Below are positions 7,490-30,256 of a stretch of 36,778 bases of DNA, piece after piece. Position 1 is the first letter of the stretch; every line of letters begins with the position of its first letter. The stretch comes from a virus. The stretch covers positions 1-36,778 of IMG/VR virus record IMGVR_UViG_3300010293_000018; one strand, 5' to 3'. Under the pieces are notes generated by a model, which had not been told where the DNA came from, ran no database searches, and worked only from the letters and a program-made list of their open reading frames with translations. The position numbers and the translations under genes were made by a program.

Positions 7490-8038
7490 ATGAGTAGAGT
7501 AACAGAACAGATCTACAAAGAGCTTCGAGATTCGGAGTTCGAAATGCTGAATGAGAAAACCCTTGAAGTCGTCAAGGCCGCCATTTTTTGGCCGAACTTC
7601 GAAGGTCGACCCAACAAGTGGAATCAGACCGCTGTGACCTTCAACCTCGCCGTCAGCGACGCCGTCGCGGAAGACCTCGAGAAAATGGGTTTCCGCGTTC
7701 GGAAAAACAACATCGACGATGAGACGGTCCTCCGGTTTGTCAACATCAAGGTGAACATGAAATCCCAACAGCCGCCCTTGATCAAACTCCTGACGGAAAG
7801 CAAGGGCAAGAAAAGCGCGAGGATTCTCGACGATGAAGAAAAAATCAAGGTGCTCGACAGCGTCGACATCGAAGAAGCATCGTGTGTCATCAATCTCTAT
7901 GAATCCAGAGCGGTTCCGGGGAAAGTGACCGGATACCTCAAAAAGCTCGTCGTCGTTCAAAATCCGAAATCGACCTTCAACGGACGATATGACGATTGGG
8001 AAAAAAGCAACTTCGAGGGAGAAAACGACGAAGAATGA
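7490..8038 (+). CDS. Putative single-stranded DNA-binding protein
   Basis: This gene encodes 182 residues. ATG 7490 is chosen because AAAGGAGA is at 7473-7480; an in-frame start at 7442 falls in the hairpin. The core reads AIFWPNFEGRPNKWNQTAVTFNLAVSDAVAEDL...GFRVR, then RFVNIKVNMKS, then a long beta-rich part ending in a conserved YLKKLVVVQN strand and an acidic tail (GENDEE). This pattern of F-x-NF-x-G-x(3)-K-x-N, a strand, VNIKV and YLK is one I know from a Bacillota-phage family suspected to be SSB-like. The acidic C-terminal tip resembles SSB tails that recruit partners. The placement between polymerase and helicase fits. Codons are C/G-ending, which suggests high expression. The OB fold is inferred, not shown. 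Confidence 0.6.
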   Translation: MSRVTEQIYKELRDSEFEMLNEKTLEVVKAAIFWPNFEGRPNKWNQTAVTFNLAVSDAVAEDLEKMGFRVRKNNIDDETVLRFVNIKVNMKSQQPPLIKLLTESKGKKSARILDDEEKIKVLDSVDIEEASCVINLYESRAVPGKVTGYLKKLVVVQNPKSTFNGRYDDWEKSNFEGENDEE

Positions 8039-8427
8039 ACCAAACCAACGTCGACCAGGCGCCCGAAGAGAAAATCGTTTTTCTGTGCCTCCCAATGAAG
8101 GGAAGAACGGAAGAAGATATTCTTTCGAGCGTCCAAAGGATGGGTTACCTAGTTAGAAAAAAATTAGGAAAGAACATCAAAGTCGTTCACAACTATGCTT
8201 CTAGCATTGAAGACCCGGAAGCATCGAAAGTAAAGGCACAGGGTCTTTGGTATCTGGGCAAGGCGTTTCAACTCCTATCCAAATCGGATTACCTTGTCTA
8301 CATAAAAGGAATCAAGAAAGGCGAATCCAATGGCTGCGATATGGAAAAACTCGCAGCTAAGCTATACGGCATTGAGACATTTGGTGTCGGGAACAAATCA
8401 TACGTTTGTCCTGATATTTTGAAGTAG
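8035..8427 (+). CDS. DUF4406-like (nucleoside deoxyribosyltransferase-fold) protein
   Basis: This gene encodes 130 residues, starting at ATG 8035, which overlaps the previous TGA (ATGA). An upstream in-frame ATG (7996) lies inside the neighbour. The N-terminus IVFLCLPMKGRTEEDI matches the I-x-LSxPMxG-x(4)-E opening of DUF4406-type proteins. Later parts LWYLGKAFQLLSKSDYLVYIKG and GCDMEKLAAKLYGIETFGV match the LxxL-x-AD and GC-x-E-x(2)-A-x(2)-YG segments. The family shares the fold of nucleoside 2-deoxyribosyltransferases and is common in phages. A role in nucleotide or nucleotide-sugar metabolism is usually guessed; the catalytic Glu could be E of GCDMEK. It is coupled to the ssDNA-binding candidate. 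Confidence 0.75.
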   Translation: MNQTNVDQAPEEKIVFLCLPMKGRTEEDILSSVQRMGYLVRKKLGKNIKVVHNYASSIEDPEASKVKAQGLWYLGKAFQLLSKSDYLVYIKGIKKGESNGCDMEKLAAKLYGIETFGVGNKSYVCPDILK

Positions 8428-8441
8428 GGAGTGTGTAGGGA

Positions 8442-9767
8442 GTGGGATTGCAACTTAAGCCTCATCAAATCGAGGCACTTGAAAAGATGAAGATTGGTTG
8501 CATCCTTAAGGGAGGTGTTGGCTCTGGAAAGAGTATCACCTCCCTTGCCTACTACTTTGAACTTAATGGTGGGGAGGTAACCGGTCCTTATCTTAAGCCT
8601 ATGGTCGGAAGACCCAAAGATTTGTATATAATAACTACAGCTAGAAAACGAGATACCCTGGAATGGATAGGGGAACTCACAAATTTTTCAATGTTTCCAG
8701 ATCCGAGTGTTTCTAGGTATAAACATAAGATTGTAATAGATTCATGGAATAACATAAAAAAGTATGTAGATGTTAAATCGTCCTTCTTTATATTCGACGA
8801 ACAACGTGTAATCGGTTATGGAGCCTGGACAAAATCGTTTTTGAAGATTGCGAAGCATAATGACTGGGTATTACTAACTGCGACACCTGGTGATACATGG
8901 AGCGACTATATCCCAGTGTTTATAGCGAATGGTCATTTCAGAAACAAGAGCGATTTTTATGACCAACATGCTGTATTTTCAAGGTTTAGTAAATACCCGA
9001 TGATAGAAAGGTATATAAACGAAGGGCGCCTCTTAAAGTATAGGAATGATATTTTAATAGAGATGCAAGACGAGAGACACACGATACCACATCATGAAAC
9101 TATAATTACAGAGTATGATAGGCACTTGTACAATCATATTACAAAAACGAGATGGAATGTGTACAAAGACAAGCCTATTGAAACTGCTAGTGAATTCTGT
9201 TTTACTTTAAGAAGGGTTGTAAACTCTGATTATAGCAGAGTTGAAGCTGTCCATTCAATACTTTTAAAACATCCAAAAGCTATTATATTCTATTCGTATG
9301 ACTATGAATTGGATATTCTGAGAGGGTTGTTTAGCGAGTTCTACGACACCGCTATTTGGGATGAGAACAGAAAAGAAAAAATCCCCGACGGCGAAAATTG
9401 GCTGTACTTTGTAAAGGACCCATTCCAAATGACGGAATGGAACGGGCATAAACACGAGGCTATCCCAGATTCTGAAAAATGGGTTTATCTCGTGGAGTAT
9501 ATCGCTGGTAGTGAGGGTTGGAACTGTATCGTTACAGACACGATCATATTCTATTCCCAAAACTACTCTTTTAGAACGGAAACGCAGGCCGCCGGGAGAA
9601 TCGACAGAATGAATACTCCCTTCACCGACCTATTCTATTTTCATTTCAGAAGTAACTCTAAAATCGACATGGCCATACGAGACGCCTATAAGCGAAAGAA
9701 GAGATTTAATGAAATGAAATTTGCTCCAGTGTTTAAAAAAAATACTATTGATCCAAAAGGAGAGTAA
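8442..9767 (+). CDS. SF2 DNA helicase (DEAD/SNF2-like)
   Basis: This gene encodes 441 residues with a GTG start at 8442; TTG 8448 with AGGGAG at 8437 is an equally good alternative. Motif I is GGVGSGKS (K30), motif II DEQR (D119, E120), motif III TATP (146-149) and motif VI QAAGRIDR (Q382-R389). An early PHQ (P7-H8-Q9) is a Q-motif-like adenine contact. These are the standard ATP-binding and arginine-finger motifs of superfamily 2. Phage enzymes of this size act in replication initiation, fork remodelling or recombination. It lies in the replication module after the polymerase and SSB candidate. The C-terminus is basic (RKKRFNEMKFAPVFKKN), which fits DNA contact. DEQR instead of DEAH/DEAD is a common phage variant. 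Confidence 0.92.
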   Translation: MGLQLKPHQIEALEKMKIGCILKGGVGSGKSITSLAYYFELNGGEVTGPYLKPMVGRPKDLYIITTARKRDTLEWIGELTNFSMFPDPSVSRYKHKIVIDSWNNIKKYVDVKSSFFIFDEQRVIGYGAWTKSFLKIAKHNDWVLLTATPGDTWSDYIPVFIANGHFRNKSDFYDQHAVFSRFSKYPMIERYINEGRLLKYRNDILIEMQDERHTIPHHETIITEYDRHLYNHITKTRWNVYKDKPIETASEFCFTLRRVVNSDYSRVEAVHSILLKHPKAIIFYSYDYELDILRGLFSEFYDTAIWDENRKEKIPDGENWLYFVKDPFQMTEWNGHKHEAIPDSEKWVYLVEYIAGSEGWNCIVTDTIIFYSQNYSFRTETQAAGRIDRMNTPFTDLFYFHFRSNSKIDMAIRDAYKRKKRFNEMKFAPVFKKNTIDPKGE

Positions 9768-16464: not shown

Positions 16465-17103
16465 ATGCAATGGAATGATCACCATGAGTTAGAAGGAAAG
16501 CACGCTTTCTTGGGAGCGAGCAATTTCAGATGGATGAATCAGAACGACGTAGATTTCGAAAAAAGGTATTATGCACAATTTGCAACCTCGATCGGCACAG
16601 CCATTCACGAATTAGCAAAAGACTGTATTGACAGTCGAATGAAGTTAACTAAACATGATAAGCGTTTAGTTGAATATTCGATGTACAAGAATGGCATTCC
16701 AAAAAGAGCCTATGACCCAGACACAATCTTAACAAATCTCCTCCCCTTCGTTAATGATGCAATTGGATACCGTATGAGTTCTGAGATTATTCTTTTCTAT
16801 AGTTATAATAGTTTTGGAACGACCGACGCAATAGTGTTTAACGAAAAAGAGAAGACTCTTCGAATTCATGATTTAAAGACGGGCACAACGCCAAGTCATA
16901 TTGAGCAGTTAATAGTGTACGCAGCCTTATTCTGTCTAGAATACAAAAAGAAACCGAAGGATTTTACAACAGAACTTCGTATTTATCAAAGTTCGGAAAT
17001 TTTAAATTATACAGCGGAGCCGATGGAGATCGAAAAGACAATGGAACTCATCAAACTCAGAGACTCGGACATAAAAGAATATTACGAGGGGGATTTTAGA
17101 TAA
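16465..17103 (+). CDS. RecB/Cas4-like PD-(D/E)XK exonuclease
   Basis: This gene encodes 212 residues, with AGGGAGA upstream. Motifs: N-terminal SIGTAIHELAKDCI (His in the usual GxxxHE position), then GTTDAIVF (D121), IHDLKTG (D136, K138) and QLIVYAALF (Q-x(3)-Y). This is the RecB C-terminal nuclease signature, without the four iron-sulfur cysteines of Cas4. Such phage proteins work as 5'-3' or end-processing exonucleases in recombination. TAATG overlap couples it to the large DFDGD protein at 17103, so the three genes 16112-20078 form an operon. Confidence 0.82.
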   Translation: MQWNDHHELEGKHAFLGASNFRWMNQNDVDFEKRYYAQFATSIGTAIHELAKDCIDSRMKLTKHDKRLVEYSMYKNGIPKRAYDPDTILTNLLPFVNDAIGYRMSSEIILFYSYNSFGTTDAIVFNEKEKTLRIHDLKTGTTPSHIEQLIVYAALFCLEYKKKPKDFTTELRIYQSSEILNYTAEPMEIEKTMELIKLRDSDIKEYYEGDFR

Positions 17104-20078
17104 TGGAAGACGACGAGAACAAAAAAATTGAGGACCAAACATTATCGCATTATGGAATGCCCAGACGTTCGGGTCGATATCCTTGGGGATCTGGAGAAAC
17201 CCCCTATCAAGGCGAAGGCGATTTTCTTAGTAGAATCCAGCCTTACAGAGATAAGGGAATGACCGATAATGAAATTGCAAAGGAACTCGATATTTCTACC
17301 ACAAAGTTTAGACAAAATCAGAGTCTGGCGATTGATCAAAGAAAGTCGGATCTTGTCGCTAGAATAAAGAGCATGCAGTCTGATGGATTGAGCAATCCAA
17401 AGATTGCGGCTGAACTCGGATTGGCTGGAGAATCCACGGTACGGTCTTTACTAGCGTCAGACGCAAAATCAAGACTTAAAATTGCAAGAAAAGCAGCCGA
17501 CTCTATTCGTGAAATTATCGATGAAAAGGGTATGCTTGACGTTGGTGTTGGCGTGGAACGAGAACTTGGCATCTCCAGAGAAAAATTAGGTCAAGCAATC
17601 CAGATTCTGCAAGAAGAGGGTTATTTACTTTACCCAGGAAGAGTTCCACAATCTACCAATAAGGGTAAATATACAACCATAAAAGTTTTGTGTCCTCCCG
17701 GAACACAGCATAAAGAAATCTATGAATATGACAAGATCAATCATTTGACTGATTATATTTCTAGAGATGAAGGGGATACATTTGAACCAGGTTTTATTTA
17801 CCCATCTTCTCTTAATTCTGATAGGATTCAAATTCGCTATGCAGAAGAAGGCGGAAAAGAAAAAGACGGGGTCGTTGAACTTAGAAGAGGAGTTCCTGAT
17901 ATTTCTCTAGGCTCTTCGAATTATGCTCAAGTTCGTATTCTGGTAGATGGAACTCATTACATCAAGGGCATGGCTTTATATTCAGATAACATGCCCGAAG
18001 GTGTCGATATTGTCTTCAATACCAATAAAAAAATCGGAACTGACAAGATGAAAGTTCTTAAGGCCATCAAAGAAGACCCCGACAATCCGTTTGGTTCTGC
18101 AATTAAGGAACATGGTGGGCAATCATATTACATCGATCCTGTCACCGGAGAAAAGAAACTCTCCGTAATCAACAAAAGAGCAGATGAGGGTGATTGGGGA
18201 GAATGGTCGAAAGAGTTGTCTTCTCAATTCCTATCAAAACAGCCAACGAAAATGATTGAGAAACAAATTAATTTGGCTATGGTTGACAAAAATGCAGAAT
18301 TTAACGAGATCATGTCTCTTACGAATCCAACAGTAAAGAAAGCCTTACTTGAAGCATTTGCAGATGACTGTGACTCGTCAGCTGTTCACCTTAAAGCTGC
18401 GTCTCTTCCTGGAACTCACTATAAAGTTATATTGCCAATCGGCTCTTTAAAAGATGATGAAACATACGCTCCCCATTTGAAAGATGGAACACAAGCGGCT
18501 CTAATTCGTTTTCCGCATGGAGGAACGTTTGAGATTCCGATTGTAACTGTAAATAATCGTAATAAAGAAGGCATCAGTGTTTTAACGCCAAATCCTCAAG
18601 ATGCAATCGGTATTAATTCCAAAGTTGCGGAACGTTTGTCCGGAGCTGATTTTGATGGTGACACTGTAATGGTTATTCCACTTAGCGAAACCGTTAAGAT
18701 CAAATCCACACCCGCTCTTAAAGGCTTGCAAGGGTTTGATACAAAAATGACTTACGGACCGGATAGTAGTAAAATTGGATCCGATGGGATAGAACATTTT
18801 TATAGAGGTGAAAAAGAAATCTCCGTTATGAAGGAATCAAATCTTCAGTTGAAAATGGGGATTGCCTCGAACCTCATCACAGACATGACATTGAAAGGCG
18901 CCACAGATGAGGAAAAAACCCGTGCCGTAAAGCATTCAATGGTTGTAATCGATGCTGTAAAACATCATCTTGATTATAAACAAAGCGAAATTGATAATGG
19001 GATTAAGGCTCTACACAAGAAGTATCAAGGCCACATTGATCCCGAAACGGGCCGTGAAAGACAAGGTGCCGCAACTCTTATTTCTAGAGCAAAATCAGAA
19101 GTCACAATTAATGAGAGAAAAGAAGCACCTGGATATTTTGCAAAAGATACTGGGAACAGACTCATTCTCGTTGATGAAGACAATAAGGTATTTTTGGATG
19201 AAGAGAGCGGTAGATTCTACTCTGAAAAAGAGAAAAGAACGTTATATGCTGATCCAAAAACAGGGGAAAAGTTGTATAAAGACACGGGTAGAGAATATAC
19301 AAAAGTTCATTACAAGGATTCCACTGGAAAGAGTCAAACGTCCACTGGTATTGTCAGAGATGGCAGACTATTTTACAAAGATGAAGATAAAAAATGGATT
19401 GAGGTCACGAGTGAGAAATTCAAGACACAACTTGCGACTATGAAATCCACAAGAATGGCAGAGGCCAAAGATGCTAGAGAACTTTCTTCTGGCACTCCAC
19501 AAGAAGAGCTTTATGCGACATATGCAAATAGTCTTAAGGCTCTAGGCAATGAGGCTAGAAAAGCCTTTTTGGCAATTAAGGAGATATCGTACTCTCCCTC
19601 TGCAAGACAGACCTATCAACAAGAGGTTAATCAACTAGAAGAGAAGCTCAATAGGGCCCTCCTAAACGCACCAAAGGAGCGCTATGCTCAAATGCTTGCC
19701 GCTACAAGAATCAAGGCGAAGCTAGCTGGTGTTGTAACATTGACCCCCGAACAAGAGAAGAAGATAAGACAACAAGAACTCTCTAGAGCCAGAGTAAAAG
19801 TTGGAGCAAAGCGTAGCAACATTCGTCTTGAGATGAGAGAATGGGAAGCAATTCAAGCTGGTGCTATAACAAAGACAAGACTTGAACAAATCATTGCGAA
19901 CTCTGACTTAGACATTCTCAGACAACTAGCGATGCCTAGAGCCACAACTGTTCTCAGTGACAACAAAGTAAGAAGATTGATCAGCATGTCTGCTTCTGGA
20001 TACACTTCATCTGAGATCGCAGATGCTTTGAACATTCCAGTATCAACGATCAGTAACTATCTGAGAAAGGAGGAATAG
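17103..20078 (+). CDS. Candidate single-chain RNA polymerase (DFDGD motif) with HTH domains and N-terminal LSHYG...PWGSG tag
   Basis: The product has 991 residues. Residues 14-36 carry the tag LSHYG, then RRSGRYPWGSGE. Residues 44-75 and 80-115 look like two helix-turn-helix units (MTDNEIAKELDISTTKF; LSNPKIAAELGLAGESTV). A central part holds RFPHGG (R469-P471) followed by ERLSGADFDGDTVMVIPL with D516-F-D518-G-D520. ADFDGD is the metal-binding loop of the beta'-subunit double-psi barrel of cellular RNA polymerases and, as DxDGD, of YonO-like phage enzymes and RNAi polymerases; R-x-P before it also fits. The last 35 residues form a third HTH (GYTSSEIADALNIPVSTISNYL). It lacks separate beta and beta' subunits. 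It probably transcribes phage genes, but activity is not proven. Confidence 0.72.
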   Translation: MEDDENKKIEDQTLSHYGMPRRSGRYPWGSGETPYQGEGDFLSRIQPYRDKGMTDNEIAKELDISTTKFRQNQSLAIDQRKSDLVARIKSMQSDGLSNPKIAAELGLAGESTVRSLLASDAKSRLKIARKAADSIREIIDEKGMLDVGVGVERELGISREKLGQAIQILQEEGYLLYPGRVPQSTNKGKYTTIKVLCPPGTQHKEIYEYDKINHLTDYISRDEGDTFEPGFIYPSSLNSDRIQIRYAEEGGKEKDGVVELRRGVPDISLGSSNYAQVRILVDGTHYIKGMALYSDNMPEGVDIVFNTNKKIGTDKMKVLKAIKEDPDNPFGSAIKEHGGQSYYIDPVTGEKKLSVINKRADEGDWGEWSKELSSQFLSKQPTKMIEKQINLAMVDKNAEFNEIMSLTNPTVKKALLEAFADDCDSSAVHLKAASLPGTHYKVILPIGSLKDDETYAPHLKDGTQAALIRFPHGGTFEIPIVTVNNRNKEGISVLTPNPQDAIGINSKVAERLSGADFDGDTVMVIPLSETVKIKSTPALKGLQGFDTKMTYGPDSSKIGSDGIEHFYRGEKEISVMKESNLQLKMGIASNLITDMTLKGATDEEKTRAVKHSMVVIDAVKHHLDYKQSEIDNGIKALHKKYQGHIDPETGRERQGAATLISRAKSEVTINERKEAPGYFAKDTGNRLILVDEDNKVFLDEESGRFYSEKEKRTLYADPKTGEKLYKDTGREYTKVHYKDSTGKSQTSTGIVRDGRLFYKDEDKKWIEVTSEKFKTQLATMKSTRMAEAKDARELSSGTPQEELYATYANSLKALGNEARKAFLAIKEISYSPSARQTYQQEVNQLEEKLNRALLNAPKERYAQMLAATRIKAKLAGVVTLTPEQEKKIRQQELSRARVKVGAKRSNIRLEMREWEAIQAGAITKTRLEQIIANSDLDILRQLAMPRATTVLSDNKVRRLISMSASGYTSSEIADALNIPVSTISNYLRKEE

Positions 20079-20395: not shown

Positions 20396-20751
20396 TTTGG
20401 TACATTACTATTCTGTACCTGTATACTGTTTGTGTCTATTCTGTGTGGTGGTACCTATAGGGAGGGGTCGTGAAAAACACACCCCCCCTTGCCATCGCGC
20501 CGGTCTTAAAAATTCCCCCGGAGGTATATTTAGGTGGATATTTTCAACACTCGGTTGGCTGCTTAATCGAATACATAAGAAATTACCTAGCTGAAACAGG
20601 CATGGTTCCTCTTCCCGATTTCTCCTTTCTCCCTCTCTCTGTCCAAATCCGTGGATATTGCTGGGTAAGGCCTTGTGTATTCCATTAAGTAGCTAACCTA
20701 AATTGCTAAAACTATTCCAAACTTAGTAGAAACTCAGGAAAGGAGAAGCAA
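20396..20751 (+). other. Non-coding region with GC hairpin, candidate packaging (cos) region
   Basis: There is no credible gene here. The stretch has a GC hairpin: GGAGGGGT-C-GTG (20461-20472), loop AAAAA, CACACCCCCCC (20478-20488). CCCCCGGAGG (20515-20524) then lies before an AT-rich TATATTTAGGTGGATATTTTC. The region directly precedes the likely small terminase and HNH genes, where cos sites of Bacillota siphophages are usually found, and C/G clusters are typical of cohesive ends. The cut position cannot be told from sequence alone. A promoter for the packaging operon may also be here. Confidence 0.4.
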
Positions 20752-22183: not shown

Positions 22184-22717
22184 ATGCGAAACACTTATAT
22201 TGTCAAAAGAACAAACGTTTTATCCCACGCCGGAATCAAAGACATGAAGTGGGGTATTCGGCGTTTCCAGAACAAAGACGGGACTCTAACTGAGGCTGGA
22301 AAACTTCGATATAGGAGTGGCGGGGATTTTGCCCAATCGGTAGATTCCCGTGGTAGGAGAACCGAGAATATGACCGAGGAAGGTAAGAAAAACTACAGCT
22401 CAAGAGCCTCCGTTGCTTCGAATGTCTCGAAAGGTCTTGAATCTGCGGCAAAACTTACCGATATCGGGAAACAAAAATCAAAGACTACTAGACCAAACTA
22501 CGATAATGTTACTGATGAAGAACTCAAGAAACGTGTTGCAAGATTGAGTTTGGAAGAGCAATATGGGAGACTTTCCGGAGACGCCAAAAAGGTCCGCACT
22601 GGTTCCGATTGGGTTCATGAGATTCTTCAGACGGGTTCGATTCTGGCAAGTATGGCGGGCACTGCTGTCTCAATTTATATTGCATTAAAAGCTTTAAGGG
22701 GCGGAAAAGTCGTATGA
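22184..22717 (+). CDS. HxG-WG-R tag protein 1 (C-terminal TM)
   Basis: This gene encodes 177 residues. The tag LSHAGIKDMKWGIRRFQNKDGTLTEAGKLRYR is at residues 12-44. A polar middle follows, then TDEELKKRVARLSLEEQYGRLSG, a helical segment. A C-terminal hydrophobic stretch (IASMAGTAVSIYIALKAL) is probably membrane-spanning. The tag matches the recurrent H-x-G-x-(K/L/P)-(G/D)-(M/Q)-(K/R)-WG-x-R-(R/K)-(F/-)-Q pattern found in the next genes. It is common in Bacillota phage proteins, but its role is not known to me. Here the tyrosine is alanine (HAG). The stop region overlaps the next ATG. Confidence 0.8.
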   Translation: MRNTYIVKRTNVLSHAGIKDMKWGIRRFQNKDGTLTEAGKLRYRSGGDFAQSVDSRGRRTENMTEEGKKNYSSRASVASNVSKGLESAAKLTDIGKQKSKTTRPNYDNVTDEELKKRVARLSLEEQYGRLSGDAKKVRTGSDWVHEILQTGSILASMAGTAVSIYIALKALRGGKVV

Positions 22718-23118
22718 TCCGCGTAACATATCCGAACGAGCTTTCTCACTATGGTGTCAAAGGTATGCGTTGGGGCCATCGTAAACTCGAAAAAGCTGCC
22801 AAAAGAATCTCCAACAAAAGGAAAGAGAAGATAAAAGCCGCTCCAGCGAAAGATGCAATAAGAACCGGTTTCAAAACCTATGCTTCGATGTTGGCCACAG
22901 GACTCCTGACAAGCACAATAGCAGGTTTGATGATTGGGAAAGCCAGAGCCACTGGCTCACTACTTTCGGTTGGGCAAGCGAGAGCTGTTAAGATTCTTTC
23001 GAAAGTTGGGACGTTTACGTTTAACAATGCCGCACTTATCGGTGTATCCGCAGCCGTAAAACAATCGAAAGTGAACGATTATATTTTAAAAGAGAATCAA
23101 GAAGGAGGAGCCTCATGA
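22714..23118 (+). CDS. HxG-WG-R tag protein 2 (membrane, basic)
   Basis: This gene encodes 134 residues. The N-terminus MIRVTYPNELSHYGVKGMRWGHRK is the tag. A very basic helix follows (KLEKAAKRISNKRKEKIKA), then hydrophobic segments ATGLLTSTIAGLMIG and FTFNNAALIGVSAAV. The pattern of tag, basic patch and membrane segments recurs in genes 23115 and 26713. It is probably a small virion or ejected protein, which is inference. It overlaps the previous gene by four bases and the next one too. Confidence 0.8.
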   Translation: MIRVTYPNELSHYGVKGMRWGHRKLEKAAKRISNKRKEKIKAAPAKDAIRTGFKTYASMLATGLLTSTIAGLMIGKARATGSLLSVGQARAVKILSKVGTFTFNNAALIGVSAAVKQSKVNDYILKENQEGGAS

Positions 23119-23441
23119 ACAGACAAGCATATCCCAATGAACTTTATCACTACGGAGTATTAGGAATGCGTTGGGGGCAAAGAAAAGCCTCCGGTGGAAA
23201 CGGCATTCAAAGCAAGATCAAATTACCAAAAAACACATCCCCAACACCCAGAACGCCAGACGAACAAAAAGCCAGAGCCCGTCGAATTCGTCGGGGGATG
23301 GTTGTCGGTGGGTCCATCCTCGCCCTTATCGGAGCCGGTATCGTCGCTGATAACAAATTTGCTGCTCGTCAAGGTCTTCCGAGTATTATTGATCTTGGAA
23401 AAGTGTGGGCAACTAAGGCTACCAAAGGTAGCATTCTATGA
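23115..23441 (+). CDS. HxG-WG-R tag protein 3 (single TM)
   Basis: This gene encodes 108 residues, from ATG 23115 with AAGGAGGAG just upstream. The tag is MNRQAYPNELYHYGVLGMRWGQRK. A proline-rich basic linker (LPKNTSPTPRTPDEQKARARRIRRG) follows, then one hydrophobic segment (MVVGGSILALIGAGIVA). The first 20 bases are almost identical to those of the 23438 and 26713 genes, which shows recent duplication or recombination. Function unknown. Confidence 0.8.
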   Translation: MNRQAYPNELYHYGVLGMRWGQRKASGGNGIQSKIKLPKNTSPTPRTPDEQKARARRIRRGMVVGGSILALIGAGIVADNKFAARQGLPSIIDLGKVWATKATKGSIL

Positions 23442-23926
23442 ACAGACAAGCATATCCGAATGAGCTTTACCACTATGGCATTTTAGGTCAAAAGTGGGGT
23501 GTTCGACGTTTTCAGAATCCCGATGGTTCTCTGACAGAGGCTGGAAAAAAAAGAGTGTCAAAAGAATTCGATAAAACGTTCGATGCTGGGTATAAAAAAT
23601 ACGCAAAAACAGGCCCTCATTTGAATGCTTATAACAGAGCGGCCGATGAAATGAATAATGGCATGATTGACAAATTCAATAAAAAACATTGGAAACCGAA
23701 CATGACGGAAAGCCAGCAGGACGATTATGTTCACGCGTATGAGAATCTATTCGAAGAGATCTACACCAAACATCAACACGATTTGGTAAAAGAATTCTCC
23801 AAAACTAGCCCAGAATTTAAGTTTGCGGAGGATGTTTTAAAAAAATACGGGAGTGAGTTTGTCGGACCCAAAAACGAGTGGAAAGTCAACTTCATAAAAG
23901 AACATCTCATTACTAAGAAGGACTGA
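23438..23926 (+). CDS. HxG-WG-R tag protein 4 (soluble)
   Basis: This gene encodes 162 residues. Its tag YHYGILGQKWGVRRFQNPDGSLTEAGKKR has the long form with the extra FQNPDGSLTEAG, like proteins 22184 and 25670. The rest is a soluble helical domain (FDAGYKKYAKTGPHLNAYNRAADEMNNGMIDKFNKKH, then DDYVHAYENLFEEIYTKHQHDLVKEF) with no membrane segment. The ribosome site is AAAGGTAG inside the preceding gene. It differs from its neighbours, which are membrane proteins, so the tag is attached to unrelated cargo domains. It directly precedes the terminase. Confidence 0.8.
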   Translation: MNRQAYPNELYHYGILGQKWGVRRFQNPDGSLTEAGKKRVSKEFDKTFDAGYKKYAKTGPHLNAYNRAADEMNNGMIDKFNKKHWKPNMTESQQDDYVHAYENLFEEIYTKHQHDLVKEFSKTSPEFKFAEDVLKKYGSEFVGPKNEWKVNFIKEHLITKKD

Positions 23927-23930
23927 TATT

Positions 23931-25673
23931 ATGCTCTCTAATACGGCTGTGCCAATCTATTACGGCCGCTTTAGAGAAGCGGTTCTTGACGGAAGAATCC
24001 CTGTTTGTAAAGAGATTTCAATGGAGATGAATCGCATTGATAATCTTATAGCAGACCCTAACTTTTACTACGATGATTTAGCCGTGGAGGGTTTTATAAA
24101 GTACTGCGAGAACGAATTAACGCTGACAGATGGTACTGACTTGGTTCTTCTTGACTCCTTTAAACTATGGGCCGAGCAAATTTTCGGTTGGTATTACTTT
24201 GTAGAACGAAGTGTCTTTGTTCCGAGTAAGGATGGGAGAAGCGGTTACTATGAGAAGCGTTTTATCAAGAAGCGCCTCGTCAACAAGCAGTACCTAATCG
24301 TTGCTCGTGGAGCAGCTAAATCCATGTACGGCTCTGTTCTACAAAGTTACTCTCTGAACATTGACACATCAACCACATATCAGGTAACAACCGCCCCAAC
24401 AATGAAACAGGCTGAAGAGATTCTATCTCCTATCAGAACATCTATCGCAAGAGCGAGAGGACCCCTATTCAAATTTTTAACAGAGGGCTCTTTGCAAAAC
24501 ACCACTGGCTCCAAAGCGAACAGAGTCAAGCTTGCAGCGACAAAGAAAGGTATTGAAAACTTTTTGACTGGATCGTTGATCGAGATAAGACCTATGCGGA
24601 TTGACAAGCTTCAAGGTCTTCGCTGTAAGGTTGCAACAATCGACGAATGGCTATCTGGTGACGTTCGAGAGGATGTAGTAGGGGCCATAGAGCAAGGTGC
24701 TTCGAAAGTTGAAGACTATCTTATCGTTGCAATGTCTTCTGAAGGCACTGTTCGTAATGGTAGTGGTGATTCAATCAAAATGGAGTTGATGGACATACTT
24801 CGCGGAGAGTATTACAACCCACACGTGTCCATTTGGTATTACAGACTTGATTCTATCGATGAAGTCTCCGATCCAAACATGTGGCCAAAAGCCAATCCAA
24901 ACATTGGGAAGACGGTTTCCTACGAAACCTATCAACTTGACGTGGAAAGAGCCGAGAAAGCCCCCGCAACAAGGAACGATATTCTAGCAAAGCGCTTTGG
25001 TATACCGATGGAAGGCTACACTTACTTCTTTACCTATGAAGAAACACTTCCTCATAGAACTAGAGATTTTTGGAAATTGCCTTGCGCTCTTGGTGCAGAC
25101 CTTTCACAGGGCGATGACTTCTGCGCCTTCACATTCCTATTTCCTCTGAAAGGTGAAACTTTTGGTGTAAAGACTAGAAGCTACATAAGCTCTTTCACCC
25201 TTCACAAACTTCCCCCAGCGATGAGGTCAAAGTATGATGAGTTTATGCAAGAGGGCTCTTTGATTGTATTTGAAGGGACTATTCTTGACATGATGATAGT
25301 CTATGACGATCTTGATAGGTTTATTATCGCACATGGCTACGATGTAAGAGCTTTGGGATTTGACCCATATAATGCAAAAGAGTTTGTCGAAAGATGGACT
25401 TCAGAAAATGGTGCATATGGAGTCGAAAAAGTAATTCAAGGTGCTAGAACAGAGTCGGTCCCGCTTGGAGAATTGAAGAAACTAGCGGAACAAAGGTCTC
25501 TCATATTTGACGAAGAGCTCATGACTTTTGCGATGAGTAACTGTATAACCATGGAAGACACAAATGGTAATAGAAAGCTCTATAAGAAGCGTCAAGAAGC
25601 AAAGATTGATAATGTTGCCGCTTTGATGGATGCTTTTGTTGCTTATAAACTTAATAAGGAGGCGTTCGAATGA
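23931..25673 (+). CDS. terL: Terminase large subunit
   Basis: This gene encodes 580 residues. The N-terminal ATPase has ARGAAKS (R126-S131, K130) as Walker A and TIDE (D238, E239) as Walker B. The C-terminal RNase H-like nuclease has GADLSQGDD (D390), LGFDPYN (D478) and KIDNVAALMDA (D560, D567). It cuts concatemeric DNA and drives it into the prohead at the portal. The Walker A is RGAAKS instead of the common RGxGKS. The length is usual for this family. Uniquely in this window, it is flanked on both sides by tag proteins, with the 25670 ATG overlapping its stop (ATGA). Confidence 0.95.
   Translation: MLSNTAVPIYYGRFREAVLDGRIPVCKEISMEMNRIDNLIADPNFYYDDLAVEGFIKYCENELTLTDGTDLVLLDSFKLWAEQIFGWYYFVERSVFVPSKDGRSGYYEKRFIKKRLVNKQYLIVARGAAKSMYGSVLQSYSLNIDTSTTYQVTTAPTMKQAEEILSPIRTSIARARGPLFKFLTEGSLQNTTGSKANRVKLAATKKGIENFLTGSLIEIRPMRIDKLQGLRCKVATIDEWLSGDVREDVVGAIEQGASKVEDYLIVAMSSEGTVRNGSGDSIKMELMDILRGEYYNPHVSIWYYRLDSIDEVSDPNMWPKANPNIGKTVSYETYQLDVERAEKAPATRNDILAKRFGIPMEGYTYFFTYEETLPHRTRDFWKLPCALGADLSQGDDFCAFTFLFPLKGETFGVKTRSYISSFTLHKLPPAMRSKYDEFMQEGSLIVFEGTILDMMIVYDDLDRFIIAHGYDVRALGFDPYNAKEFVERWTSENGAYGVEKVIQGARTESVPLGELKKLAEQRSLIFDEELMTFAMSNCITMEDTNGNRKLYKKRQEAKIDNVAALMDAFVAYKLNKEAFE
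25653..25671 (+). repeat. 19-bp leader repeat, copy 1
   Basis: AATAAGGAGGCGTTCGAAT here recurs exactly at 26097-26115. This copy spans the end of the terminase gene and the ATG of the 25670 gene. A repeat that includes a ribosome site points to duplication of the translation-start cassette. Confidence 0.85.
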
Positions 25674-26101
25674 GCACTAGATATTACATAGCACACGAAG
25701 GTATCAAAGGTCAAAAATGGGGCGTTCGACGTTTCCAGAATGAAGATGGGACTCTAACTGAGGCAGGTAAAGAAAGATATTCAAAGAATTACAATGGTCA
25801 ACAACGAACAAGAGATAGGAGAATCTATGGACCAAACGCCGTTGAAAGAATTAACAAACGGATGTTGAATGGCGAATCGATTCAGAGTGCAAGGAATGCG
25901 GAAGTGAAGATCAAAAGAACAAAAGAGAGCGGAAAAGCTATTGGAAAAAATATCGCAAAAGCTGCTCTTATAGTAAGTGGTGCAGCTGCGGTTGCCATTC
26001 TTCTAAAAAAGAAGGGAATTGGTGGTGGAGTTGCCACTGATATATTGACCGAGCAAGTGGTTAATGTGGGTAGACAAGTCGTCAACTCTATATTTAAATA
26101 A
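25670..26101 (+). CDS. HxG-WG-R tag protein 5 (C-terminal TM)
   Basis: This gene encodes 143 residues, with AAGGAGG before the ATG. The tag is IAHEGIKGQKWGVRRFQNEDGTLTEAGKERYS (HEG, not HYG), again in the long FQ-x-DG-(T/S)-LTEAG form. The middle is basic and helical; a hydrophobic segment (AALIVSGAAAVAILL) lies near residue 107. The C-terminus is short and amphipathic. It may be an internal virion protein delivered with DNA, which is only inference. It lies between the terminase and the 26117 gene. Confidence 0.8.
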   Translation: MSTRYYIAHEGIKGQKWGVRRFQNEDGTLTEAGKERYSKNYNGQQRTRDRRIYGPNAVERINKRMLNGESIQSARNAEVKIKRTKESGKAIGKNIAKAALIVSGAAAVAILLKKKGIGGGVATDILTEQVVNVGRQVVNSIFK

Positions 26102-26115
26102 GGAGGCGTTCGAAT
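26097..26115 (+). repeat. 19-bp leader repeat, copy 2
   Basis: This is an exact second copy of the 25653-25671 sequence, here as the intergenic leader before the 26117 gene. The ATG is two bases further on than in copy 1 (GAATAATG). It supports tandem duplication of gene starts in this cluster. Confidence 0.85.
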
Positions 26116-26116
26116 A

Positions 26117-26701
26117 ATGGAACTTAGGAAAGACCACTATGATAAAGTTCCATCTCTTGTCTGCGAAGTTCTTGATAATTTGATAGAGAAGTATTCGGAC
26201 GAGGAATGGTTTGAAGAAGCCTGGAACAAGTACAGATCTTACGTTCTTAGGACATCGGCTGACAATCAGCGTATGCCCGGTTATATTTTCAAGCACTACA
26301 TCAAACCAGACACGGCCAAGCACTCTGATTATTTGATTCACTATGGTGTTCTTGGTATGAAGTGGGGAGTCAGGAAACAACAAGCCGATATTTCCAACGG
26401 TCGTAAAAGAACTCTCACGGATAAGCAAAAAAACACCCTAAAGACAGTTGGTATTCTGGCCGCTGGCGTGGCCGTTGGCGCGACTGCGGTTGGCGCGGCA
26501 TGGTATCTTAAGAATATGAAAAACAAAAAGATATTGCTCGCAAAGAGAGCCGCTGCGATCGCAAAAGGTCAAGCTACCAGAGCTGCAAGAAAAGCATCTG
26601 GAGAGTATCTCAAATTCAAAAACGTTGCCGTCACAATTTCAAAAGGAAGTGACTTCGTCAAGGAGTTCTCCGGTGTCAAACTTGCAAAACTCATTCTATA
26701 A
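26117..26701 (+). CDS. HxG-WG-R tag protein 6 (internal tag)
   Basis: This gene encodes 194 residues, with AAGGAGG in the duplicated leader. Unlike the others, it has about 70 residues before the tag: MELRKDHYDKVPSLVCEVLDNLIEKYSDEEWFEEAWNKYRSYVL, a helical domain. The tag YLIHYGVLGMKWGVRK follows at about residues 72-87. After it come a basic stretch, a hydrophobic segment (VGILAAGVAVGATAVGAAWYL) and a basic alanine-rich helix. The internal position may mean that an untagged domain was fused in front, or that the tag is exposed after cleavage by the prohead protease. The latter is speculation. Confidence 0.78.
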   Translation: MELRKDHYDKVPSLVCEVLDNLIEKYSDEEWFEEAWNKYRSYVLRTSADNQRMPGYIFKHYIKPDTAKHSDYLIHYGVLGMKWGVRKQQADISNGRKRTLTDKQKNTLKTVGILAAGVAVGATAVGAAWYLKNMKNKKILLAKRAAAIAKGQATRAARKASGEYLKFKNVAVTISKGSDFVKEFSGVKLAKLIL

Positions 26702-26712
26702 GGAGGAGCCTC

Positions 26713-27087
26713 GTGAACAGACAACCATATCCGAATGAACTTTACCACTATGGCGTTCCCGGCATGCGCTGGGGCCATCGTAAGGCTCGCATTGAGGAAA
26801 GAAAAGAAAGGCAAAGAAAACGCGGAATCGATCGCCCAATCGGGACCGCAATTGGAAAAGGTTTGATAACCTGGGGAGCCATCACTGCCGCTGGTTTAGC
26901 AACTGTAACTGTCGGTGCAATGTTGTTAAAAAGCAAAACCATGACCTTAGGTAAGTTAAAAGCCTCTGCTATGATCGTAAGTATTGGGAAACTCACAATG
27001 GGCTCGGCCGCTTTAGCCGGGGTAATTGCAGGCGGGGTTAAACTTGGAAAGAATCTAGACAACATAAAAAAACAAAATAATTCGTAA
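26713..27087 (+). CDS. HxG-WG-R tag protein 7 (membrane, GTG start)
   Basis: This gene encodes 124 residues, from GTG 26713 with AAGGAGGAGCCTC, the same leader as the 23115 gene. The tag is MNRQPYPNELYHYGVPGMRWGHRK, followed by a basic helix (IEERKERQRKRG) and two hydrophobic segments (ITWGAITAAGLATVTVGAMLL; LTMGSAALAGVIAGGV). It closely resembles protein 2 in layout. It is the last tag gene before the portal gene. The GTG start replaces the ATG of its copy. Confidence 0.8.
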   Translation: MNRQPYPNELYHYGVPGMRWGHRKARIEERKERQRKRGIDRPIGTAIGKGLITWGAITAAGLATVTVGAMLLKSKTMTLGKLKASAMIVSIGKLTMGSAALAGVIAGGVKLGKNLDNIKKQNNS

Positions 27088-27104: not shown

Positions 27105-28520
27105 ATGGGCTTTATTGATAGACTACAACATGCCTGGAATGCATTTGTAGAAAACGATCTCTCGAGAGGGAGACGTGATTACGTCAACCTAGGATATTCC
27201 ACCTCGTTTCGCCCAGACAGACTATTTCTAAGCAGAGGAAACGAGAAGTCCATTGTCAATGCGATTTACAATCGCATAGCTCTCGACTGCGCGTCTATCA
27301 TCATAAGGCATGTCCGCCTTGACGACAATGGAAGATTCATAAACGAAGTTCCGAGTGGACTTAACAATTGCCTATCCGTTGAGGCCAACAAAGATCAAAG
27401 TGCGATCGCCTTCATGCAAGATATTGTGATCTCTATGTTTGATGAAGGGGTCGTTGCAATCGTCCCGGTAGATACCAGTATCAATGCGGTAGAGTCGAAC
27501 TCCTATGATATTCTGTCCTTGCGAACGGGACGGATTACTCAATGGTATCCGGACCACGTCCGCATTGATGTTTACAACGATCAAAAAGGAATGAGGGAAG
27601 AAATTACAGTGCCGAAGAAAATTGTCGCCATCGTTGAGAATCCCTTATATTCTGTCATGAATCAAAAGAACTCAATGCTTCAGAGACTCGTCCAAAAGCT
27701 GAATTTGCTTGATGCGATTGACCAGCAATCCGGATCTGGCAAATTGGATCTTATCATCCAGTTACCATATGTAATAAAAACTGACGAAAGACGTAAACAG
27801 GCGGACCTCAGACGAGCTGATATTGAATCCCAGCTTTCTGGTTCTAAATATGGTGTGGCGTATACGGATGGTACTGAAAAGGTTACGCAGTTGAATCGTC
27901 CAGTGGAAAACAATCTATTGAAGCAAGTCGAATTTCTAACGAGTATGTCATACGGCCAGTTAGGGATTACGCCAAGTGTCATGGATGGTACCGCTGACGA
28001 GAAAACCATGCTAAACTACCTCAACAGGACCATTGAGCCGGTTGTTGCAGCGATCGCTCAAGAGATGAATCGAAAATTCTTGACGAAAACCGCCAGAAGC
28101 CAAAAACAGACCATTAAGTATTTCAACAATCAGTTTAAACTGGTCCCCCTCGGAAACCTTGCCGAAATCGTGGACAAATTCACCAGAAACGAAGTTTTGT
28201 CTCCGAATGAAATTAGGCAAATTATTGGCATGAAGCCGGCTTCTGACCCGAAAGCCGACGAACTCAGGAATAGGAACATTAATGCCAATGGTCAAATGAT
28301 TGAGTATACCGAAGAAGGAGAGGCCGGTCATTCCGGTCTGCCGAGAGTCATTGAATCGTCTGACAAAGGCAGGAAAAAATTCAAAATTAAGCTCATCAAT
28401 CAGGGCGGACATGAAGTAGAATTTCTTGTTTTAGCGAAGGATGAAGAAGATGCGGTAAAGGCAGCGATCGACGGTACCGATGTGCCACGAGAGAACATTA
28501 AACTCGTGGAAGCTATTTAG
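27105..28520 (+). CDS. Portal protein
   Basis: This gene encodes 471 residues, with GAAGGAGA before ATG 27105. The sequence MGFIDRLQHAWNAFV, the long alpha/beta body and QLGITPSVMDGTADEKTMLNYLNRTIEPVVAAIAQEMNRKFL are typical of HK97-type portals: the LG-x-PxxxL loop and the long helical crown are visible. The C-terminal 60 residues contain HEVEFLVLAKDEEDAVKAAIDG, an extra small domain beyond the usual core. Twelve copies form the entry ring for DNA and bind the terminase. It precedes the protease-capsid fusion by 20 bases. Confidence 0.9.
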   Translation: MGFIDRLQHAWNAFVENDLSRGRRDYVNLGYSTSFRPDRLFLSRGNEKSIVNAIYNRIALDCASIIIRHVRLDDNGRFINEVPSGLNNCLSVEANKDQSAIAFMQDIVISMFDEGVVAIVPVDTSINAVESNSYDILSLRTGRITQWYPDHVRIDVYNDQKGMREEITVPKKIVAIVENPLYSVMNQKNSMLQRLVQKLNLLDAIDQQSGSGKLDLIIQLPYVIKTDERRKQADLRRADIESQLSGSKYGVAYTDGTEKVTQLNRPVENNLLKQVEFLTSMSYGQLGITPSVMDGTADEKTMLNYLNRTIEPVVAAIAQEMNRKFLTKTARSQKQTIKYFNNQFKLVPLGNLAEIVDKFTRNEVLSPNEIRQIIGMKPASDPKADELRNRNINANGQMIEYTEEGEAGHSGLPRVIESSDKGRKKFKIKLINQGGHEVEFLVLAKDEEDAVKAAIDGTDVPRENIKLVEAI

Positions 28521-28540: not shown

Positions 28541-30256
28541 ATGGCGAAGAAACCAAAAGGTAGTTTCGACTTCGCAGGATGGGCGACTCGTTTCAACATC
28601 AAGTGTTCCGACGGGAGAACCATCAAAAACGAAGCTTTCATGCATCATGATGGAATGACGGTGCCTCTCGTCTGGGGGCATAAGCACAATGATATTGACA
28701 ACGTATTGGGTCATGCGTTGTTGGAATTTCGTGAGAACGAGGGTATTTATACCTACGGCTCGTTCAACAGCACAGACGAAGGAAAAAGAGCTAAAGAAAT
28801 GGTCTCCCATGGGGATATTACGGCTCTTTCTATCTATGCGAACAAATTGAAACATAAGGGCTCCGACGTAGTCCACGGTGAAATCAAGGAAGTAAGCTTG
28901 GTTCTCGCCGGAGCAAATCCGGGAGCCCACATCGAGACCGTTCTCGCACACAGCGAGGATGAGGGAGATGAAGCGGTTATTTTCAATGTAAGTGATCAAC
29001 TGTTTCTTGAACATTCTGATCAACAGGATGATGAAGAAAAAAACCCCAAGGAGGACACGAAAGTGGAAAAAACGGTTCAGCAAGTTTTTGACGAGTTCAG
29101 CGAAGAGCAAAAGAACGTCGTCTACGCAATGATCGGCCTTGCCCTCGAAGAAGGCGGCAAAAAAACCCAGGAGGAAGACACGATGAAGCAAAATCTGTTC
29201 AACAACACCCAGCAAAATGATGAAGAAAGCATCCTCAAACACGAAGAAGTTCTCGAAGCCATCAAGGACGCCAAGAAGGTCGGGTCGCTGAAGACTTCGT
29301 TCCTCGAACATGGAATCACGGACGTCTCGCAACTGTTCCCCGAGACCCAGGCCGTCAATCGTACGCCGGAGACCATCTCCCGCGACATGAACTGGGTCCA
29401 GAAGGTCATGAGCAAAGTCAAGCACTCGCCCTTCTCCCGCGTCAAATCGACCGCCGTCAATCTCACCGCCGATGAAGCCAAAGCGAAAGGCTACATCAAG
29501 GGCGACCAAAAGGCCGAACAGGTCATCGTCGCTCTGAAGCGCTCGACGACCCCCCAGACCATCTACATCAACCAGAAAATGGACCGTGACGACGTCGTCG
29601 ACATCACCGATTTCGACGTTGTCGCCTTCCTTAAATCCGAAATGCGAATCCTTCTCGACGAAGAAATCGCCCGTGCCATCCTGATCGGCGACGGCCGCCT
29701 GGCCTCCGACGAACACAAGATCAAGGCCGACAACGTTCGCCCGATCCTCGGCGACAATGCGGTCTACACCGTTCCGAAGATCATGGAACCGGCCAGCGGC
29801 GAAAGCGAATACGCCTTTGCCAAGCGTCTGATCAAAGAAATCATCAAAGCCCGCAAGGACTACAAAGGCTCCGGAAATCCGGACTTCTTCACGACCGAAG
29901 ACATGCTCACCAACATGCTTCTGATCGAAGACACCAATGGCCGCGTCATCTATGAAACCGTCGACCGCCTGAAAACGGCGCTTCGCGTTTCCGACATCAT
30001 CACCGTTCCGGTCATGGAAAACGTCGTTCGTACCAACGATGCTAGCACCTTCGACTACACCTGCCTCGGCATCCTCGTCAACCTGAACGACTACAACGTC
30101 GGCGCGGACAAGGGTGGCGCGGTCTCCATGTTCGAAGATTTCGACATCGACTACAACAAGGAAAAATACCTCATCGAAACCCGCATCTCCGGCGCGCTCA
30201 TCAAGCCGTATTCGGCGATCAGCTTCGAACTCAAAACGAACCACGTCGCCGGCTAA
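28541..30256 (+). CDS. Fusion of prohead protease and major capsid protein
   Basis: This gene encodes 571 residues. Residues 1-150 resemble HK97-type prohead protease: VPLVWGHKH (H47) and DITALSIYA (S97), the His-Ser pair of this serine protease, then VVHGEIKEVSLVLAGANPGA. Residues 150-215 are an acidic, helical, scaffold-like linker. From about residue 215 the HK97-fold capsid protein follows (PFSRVKSTAVNLTADEAKAKGY, DITDFDVVAFLKSEMRILLDEEIARAILIGDGR). Two internal in-frame starts have good ribosome sites: GTG 29063 (V175, AAGGAGG at 29048) and ATG 29183 (M215, AGGAGG at 29169). So a free capsid protein may be made besides the fusion. The capsid part uses C-ending codons, unlike the protease part. 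Confidence 0.9.
   Translation: MAKKPKGSFDFAGWATRFNIKCSDGRTIKNEAFMHHDGMTVPLVWGHKHNDIDNVLGHALLEFRENEGIYTYGSFNSTDEGKRAKEMVSHGDITALSIYANKLKHKGSDVVHGEIKEVSLVLAGANPGAHIETVLAHSEDEGDEAVIFNVSDQLFLEHSDQQDDEEKNPKEDTKVEKTVQQVFDEFSEEQKNVVYAMIGLALEEGGKKTQEEDTMKQNLFNNTQQNDEESILKHEEVLEAIKDAKKVGSLKTSFLEHGITDVSQLFPETQAVNRTPETISRDMNWVQKVMSKVKHSPFSRVKSTAVNLTADEAKAKGYIKGDQKAEQVIVALKRSTTPQTIYINQKMDRDDVVDITDFDVVAFLKSEMRILLDEEIARAILIGDGRLASDEHKIKADNVRPILGDNAVYTVPKIMEPASGESEYAFAKRLIKEIIKARKDYKGSGNPDFFTTEDMLTNMLLIEDTNGRVIYETVDRLKTALRVSDIITVPVMENVVRTNDASTFDYTCLGILVNLNDYNVGADKGGAVSMFEDFDIDYNKEKYLIETRISGALIKPYSAISFELKTNHVAG

Follow-up and report, generated by a model that had tools for sequence, protein, structure and literature searches.

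Genes around the terminase gene

The window analysed here is the whole of IMG/VR virus record IMGVR_UViG_3300010293_000018 (36,778 nucleotides), and its head region encodes seven small proteins that share a short signature, hereafter the form A tag, and flank the gene for the terminase large subunit (TerL; terL at 23931..25673, PF20441, 3.5e-35). An earlier note on this DNA had described these seven open reading frames (ORFs) as standing in a row around terL. All seven bear the signature and do flank terL, split into four genes upstream and three downstream. The pattern H-x-G-[IV]-x-[GD]-[MQ]-[KR]-W-G-x-R has exactly seven matches in the six-frame translation of the window and none in 50 mononucleotide shuffles. 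Shine-Dalgarno-like sequences precede most of the seven ORFs, and all features described in the window lie on the plus strand.

Upstream of terL, the first protein (22184..22717, 177 aa; tag at 22220..22264) has a long-form tag, a conserved helical core (VTDEELKKRVARLSLEEQYGRLSGD...) and a C-terminal hydrophobic segment. It is followed by a protein of net charge +17 (22714..23118, 134 aa; tag at 22741..22785; DUF7211, 1.6e-10), a basic protein with one hydrophobic segment (23115..23441, 108 aa; tag at 23142..23186), and a near-neutral protein with a long-form tag and no transmembrane-like segment (23438..23926, 162 aa; tag at 23465..23509). Downstream lie a basic protein with a long-form tag and one hydrophobic segment (25670..26101, 143 aa; tag at 25688..25732), a protein in which about 72 residues precede an internal tag and a basic, hydrophobic part follows it (26117..26701, 194 aa; tag at 26333..26377), and a basic protein with a GTG start and two hydrophobic segments (26713..27087, 124 aa; tag at 26740..26784). 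Next come the portal gene (27105..28520), assigned by homologues and by synteny with annotated portals, and a fusion of prohead protease and major capsid protein (28541..30256; phrog_3270, 1.5e-201), which is a candidate receptor for the tag.

The form A tag is the Pfam family DUF7211 (PF23847), a 25-residue family with a curated cut-off of 27 bits. Five of the seven proteins pass this cut-off (22714, 23115, 23438, 26117 and 26713); those at 22184 and 25670 score 20.1 bits each (E 4e-4), under the cut-off, with the core motif intact. Pfam assigns DUF7211 no function, literature searches on DUF7211 and on the motif strings found nothing, and Pfam, PHROGs and NCBIfam searches gave no function for the cargo of the window proteins. 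The tag histidine is residue 15, 12, 12, 12, 9, 75 and 12 in gene order, which agrees with the earlier description of a tag that is usually near the N-terminus and lies further in at 26117. Among 235 tagged proteins from relatives, 86% have the tag within the first 30 residues, and a minority have internal or repeated copies. Long and short forms both exist, as had been claimed, with the long form in 34% of the 235.

The cargo beyond the tag, which had been called unrelated, is only partly so. Neighbouring tagged proteins mostly have little in common except the tag, and the similarity among 22184, 23438 and 25670 after the motif falls mainly in the long-form tag; however, 22714 and 26713 are paralogues, with homology outside the tag as well (31% over 108 aa, E 7e-8). 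Except for 23438, the tagged proteins have a strong net positive charge (+8.5 to +13 per 100 residues), and they differ in charge from the other window genes, which centre near zero (Mann-Whitney p 1.5e-4). Hydrophobic segments occur in 5 of the 7 and in 23% of tagged relatives; the share among the other window proteins is 11%.

An RNA polymerase carries a variant of the tag

The earlier note overlooked an eighth, variant-tagged protein. The product of 17103..20078 (991 aa) is a single-chain two-barrel RNA polymerase (RNAP), with a GADFDGD motif, a C-terminal helix-turn-helix (HTH) and a match to phrog_4291 at E 0 (1165 bits), and it is probably a virion RNA polymerase. Sequence searches of the PDB with its profile gave chiefly HTH matches and one marginal match to a tape-measure polymerase, so a fold search was used. 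The best Foldseek matches of the AlphaFold model (predicted local distance difference test score, pLDDT, 83) were QDE-1 (E 1.6e-8), RDR2 and phage P74 gp62 (E 1.3e-6), with low TM-scores.

The polymerase tag, form B (LSHYGMPRRSGRYPWGSG), spans residues 14–31 (17142..17195). It lies within residues 1–38, whose pLDDT is below 50, and the tag region is likewise predicted to be disordered in the model of one tagged cargo protein. The earlier note had named a folded catalytic domain as a result that would contradict it; the predicted disorder argues against such a domain. Across an alignment of 37 RNAPs, H16, G18, S23–P27 and G29–G31 are invariant and W28 is conserved in at least 90%. This set was fetched partly by the pattern GRYPWGSG, and members fetched via TerL or the polymerase itself have the tag too. 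The catalytic ADFDGD, little more conserved than the tag, is also invariant; full-length RNAPs of the alignment were picked by this motif, which the window protein has regardless. Form B is found at the polymerase N-terminus across polymerase-bearing isolates. PF23847 does not match the window polymerase and matches several other polymerase N-termini weakly, below threshold. Form A, with five of seven proteins above the cut-off, thus belongs to DUF7211, whereas form B, which falls below it, is a related variant and not a member.

Polymerases are longer in the relatives G011, G012 and W11, with open frames of 1025–1085 aa, and G012 has extra short polymerase-like fragments. In the window, a gap without a confident gene (20396–20751) separates the polymerase block from the head block; a cos site may lie there, since related linear genomes end between the polymerase and head genes.

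Three tag forms at the same gene positions

Other forms of the tag occupy the positions around terL in some phages. Form B occurs on genes of the terL–portal region in two IMG/VR contigs (L131 and L164), and a form C, LIHFNKNHxxxTGxFxxG, occurs on the core protein or its neighbours in four (L073, with its form C region at 7723–9058, L293, L294 and L295). L073 and L293 appear to be the same or very close phages, and L294 has forms A and C in adjacent genes. With B or C on the same terL-flanking genes, the forms look interchangeable. Judging from the sequences, they may share a common pattern of roughly L-x-H-[YFH]...G-[RKQM]-[YFK]-x-[WS]-G. The form-B-tagged product of L131:2773-3798 has, by eye, a GNAT-like C-terminal part and a SLOG-type Rossmann-like middle.

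The tagged helical protein at 22184 is the counterpart of a core protein that usually lies upstream of terL in relatives. A profile built on the helical module that follows the tag found 83 complete core proteins, and 81 of these match the tag pattern; the two others have a tryptophan replaced by lysine (L012, tag HFGILGQKKGVRR) and a form-C-like motif (L073). A tagged gene lies directly upstream of terL in 83 of 104 loci. Tagged genes between terL and the portal gene were counted in 90 loci that contain both: 31 loci lack them, 38 contain a single one and 21 contain two to eight. The number per phage ranges from 1 to 9 among relatives (Qui 9, ReqiPepy6 8, ReqiPoco6 7, Arthrobacter phage ElephantMan 6, Streptomyces phage Bilo 1). 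The seven copies of the window are therefore high but not exceptional, and the marked expansion proposed in the earlier note was overstated.

Tag, polymerase and capsid-protease fusion occur together

The tag and the polymerase have nearly the same distribution. Among 50,697 phage records, compared genus by genus and not record by record, 245 have the tag and 250 the polymerase. Their counts are equal in Arthrobacter (95), Gordonia (55), Streptomyces (54), Curtobacterium (7), Microbacterium (4), Rhodococcus (4) and Faecalibacterium (2). In Lactococcus the tag count is 8 against 13 for the polymerase, and the Lactococcus phages 1706 and CHPC971 do bear the tag when read directly. The capsid-protease fusion repeats the polymerase's numbers (95, 55, 54, 13, 7, 4, 4 and 2), as does form B, whose matches, among those listed, are nearly all in polymerase genes. 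TerL homologues occur in 1,895 records, about eight times as many as the tag. The polymerase was present in 27 of 28 records picked by TerL or from annotated phages, and DUF7211 in 22 of 23 picked by the polymerase tag (20 above the family cut-off, a few weak); both exceptions are contigs that stop short of the region in question. Tag matches in Klebsiella were rejected as chance, being in unrelated genes where annotated, such as that for ribose-phosphate diphosphokinase.

In isolates, the signature is limited to one phage lineage with hosts in Bacillota and Actinomycetota. The hosts thus include a second phylum besides the Bacillota named in the earlier note, and multi-copy sets recur.

Virion annotation of phage 1706

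Phage 1706 provides the link to the virion. Its ORF7, encoded between terL and ORF6, which is adaptor-like, bears two tags, and the polymerase with its form B tag is ORF75. In record EU081845 the depositors gave both the label "structural protein". The 2008 description of phage 1706 by Garneau and co-workers reportedly included mass spectrometry; the virion evidence used here is the annotation. The head modules of 1706 and Rhodococcus phage ReqiPepy6 resemble the window in gene order and tagged proteins, with one form A gene in 1706 and eight in ReqiPepy6 against seven in the window; the structural labels of ReqiPepy6 derive from similarity to 1706.

Enzymes and a portal protein among the tagged proteins

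The domains fused to the tag, a listing of which had been proposed in the earlier note, are diverse. Among 135 tagged proteins, Pfam identified seven GNAT acetyltransferases, four 2H phosphoesterase domains (2'-5' RNA ligase type), two papain-fold members of the glutamine deamidase type and one portal fusion, and PADLOC gave two weak JetC2 matches and nothing else. In the portal fusion (L057:4585-6216, with identical copies in L059 and L062), the tag lies in the C-terminal part, after the portal domain, and the protein also has an extra domain; it is one event in one lineage among 85 portals. The portal C-terminus is normally turned toward the capsid interior.

A further cargo family with the motif GY[DN]AI-x-D-x-ND (e.g., L256:1744-2583) was found by a DNA pattern independent of the tag, and 31 of the 32 complete ORFs of the family counted by eye carry the tag (leaving out the WKSNV family and L248 as unrelated). 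A single-protein search with this cargo found only the query itself. The top Foldseek matches of its model were weak (best E 5e-3, with no match under 1e-3) and in the main diphtheria-toxin-like, Tse6 or NADase chains, and from this model the cargo is possibly ADP-ribosyltransferase- or NADase-like.

A putative docking motif for loading proteins into the head

We consider it likely that the tag is a disordered docking motif that loads the polymerase and a swappable set of proteins into the head during assembly. The variant tag on the polymerase, the structural annotation in 1706, the alternative forms that occupy the same gene positions, and the predicted disorder all support this reading. The address label for prohead loading suggested in the earlier note is accordingly the best-supported account of the tag, and the partner protein, the place inside the capsid and ejection with the DNA are the parts of that suggestion that stay conjectural. 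The short tag would dock proteins into the assembling head, possibly with the capsid-protease fusion as its receptor. Its clients would be the polymerase through form B, the conserved helical protein near terL, and a variable set of enzyme domains and of small proteins that are mostly basic or membrane-prone. These clients would lie in the capsid interior, packed with the DNA, and would probably be delivered with it into the bacterium, where early transcription would fall to the polymerase, while accessory proteins could help entry, take-over or counter-defence. Opinion among us is evenly balanced on a wider claim, that the tag is a degenerate signal for encapsidation, existing in three or more interchangeable forms, and a general loading code across two phyla by which anything tagged is packed with the polymerase and injected.

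Several observations weigh against loading. The linkage of tag and polymerase may arise because the head module is inherited as a unit, capsid-protease fusion included; because inheritance of the whole module could produce the linkage alone, we treat it as supporting and not decisive. Form C is rare (one pattern in four contigs). Internal or repeated tags, such as the two in 1706 ORF7, are unlike the N-terminal cleaved peptide of T4, and no conserved cleavage site was identified for the tag. The hydrophobic segments in several tagged proteins are unusual for soluble head cargo, and the virion presence in 1706 is taken from database annotation.

The tag could instead be an assembly peptide, with the tagged proteins forming scaffold or structural parts of the inner head to which the polymerase is anchored, so that only the polymerase need be injected. 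The recurrence of one helical tagged core protein near terL fits such a role, as does the structural label of 1706 ORF7, and several tags in one protein suggest multivalent bridging; nevertheless, a cargo that varies from one to nine proteins and includes GNAT, 2H phosphoesterase and papain-type domains is hard to see as scaffold, and we regard this account as rather unlikely. Tight co-occurrence with the polymerase would also follow if the tag bound the RNA polymerase of the phage, or the transcripts it makes, and the tagged proteins were late-made transcription partners that had no need to be in the virion. This seems improbable: the motif is on the polymerase itself, which therefore looks like a client, the tagged genes sit in the head module, the 1706 annotation puts both tagged proteins in the virion, and the capsid-protease fusion co-occurs just as tightly.

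Membrane targeting, in which the tag guides its carriers during infection to the membrane or envelope of the host, would account for the excess of hydrophobic segments among window proteins and relatives. We think it very improbable, as many tagged proteins lack such segments, some are enzymes and the polymerase is tagged too; unlike a signal peptide, the tag is predicted to be disordered and can be internal. Docking on the terminase or packaging motor has hardly any probability in our estimate, even though a tagged gene so often abuts terL on its upstream side. The flanking position does not implicate the terminase as a partner, because TerL homologues are so much commoner than the tag; most phages with a related TerL lack the tag, and the polymerase gene lies apart from terL.

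Proteins injected with phage DNA are largely unknown beyond a few models. If the loading interpretation is true, the injected protein set of each phage would be readable from its genome, and for about 240 isolates and many uncultured phages a tag scan would predict which proteins are injected, among them a virion polymerase and candidate counter-defence enzymes. DUF7211 would gain a function, and the tag would offer a handle for loading proteins into the heads of Gram-positive phages.

Comparison with known systems

The closest parallel is the capsid targeting sequence (CTS) of T4. In T4, targeting peptides of 10–19 residues are carried by basic internal proteins, and Alt, an ADP-ribosyltransferase, is also packed and processed (PMC9026906; PMC5694885). 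As in IPI-III and the Alt propeptide, the tag is a short motif, most often at the N-terminus, that is found on small basic proteins as well as on effector enzymes, and T4 and the tagged phage both encode a prohead protease. In contrast to the T4 sequence, the tag has about 15–18 residues with near-invariant H, G, W and G, can occur in internal or repeated copies, is found in phages of Bacillota and Actinomycetota, and includes an RNA polymerase among its clients. We know of no sequence relation between the two. By analogy, our best reading is that the tag is a putative CTS-like signal, which would work in the manner of the T4 sequence.

Encapsulin cargo-loading peptides are likewise short and disordered and recruit cargo into an HK97-fold shell; the phage shell differs in containing DNA. 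The window polymerase itself resembles the virion RNAPs gp66 of the crAss-like phage phi14:2 and gp96 of P23-45, each a single-chain two-barrel enzyme with DxDGD and a probable virion protein for early transcription, and the virion RNAP of giant phages is a further comparison. The crAss-like and P23-45 RNAPs are fused to large proteins or to the tape measure (PMC10770324), whereas the window polymerase is free and carries a short tag common to other proteins.

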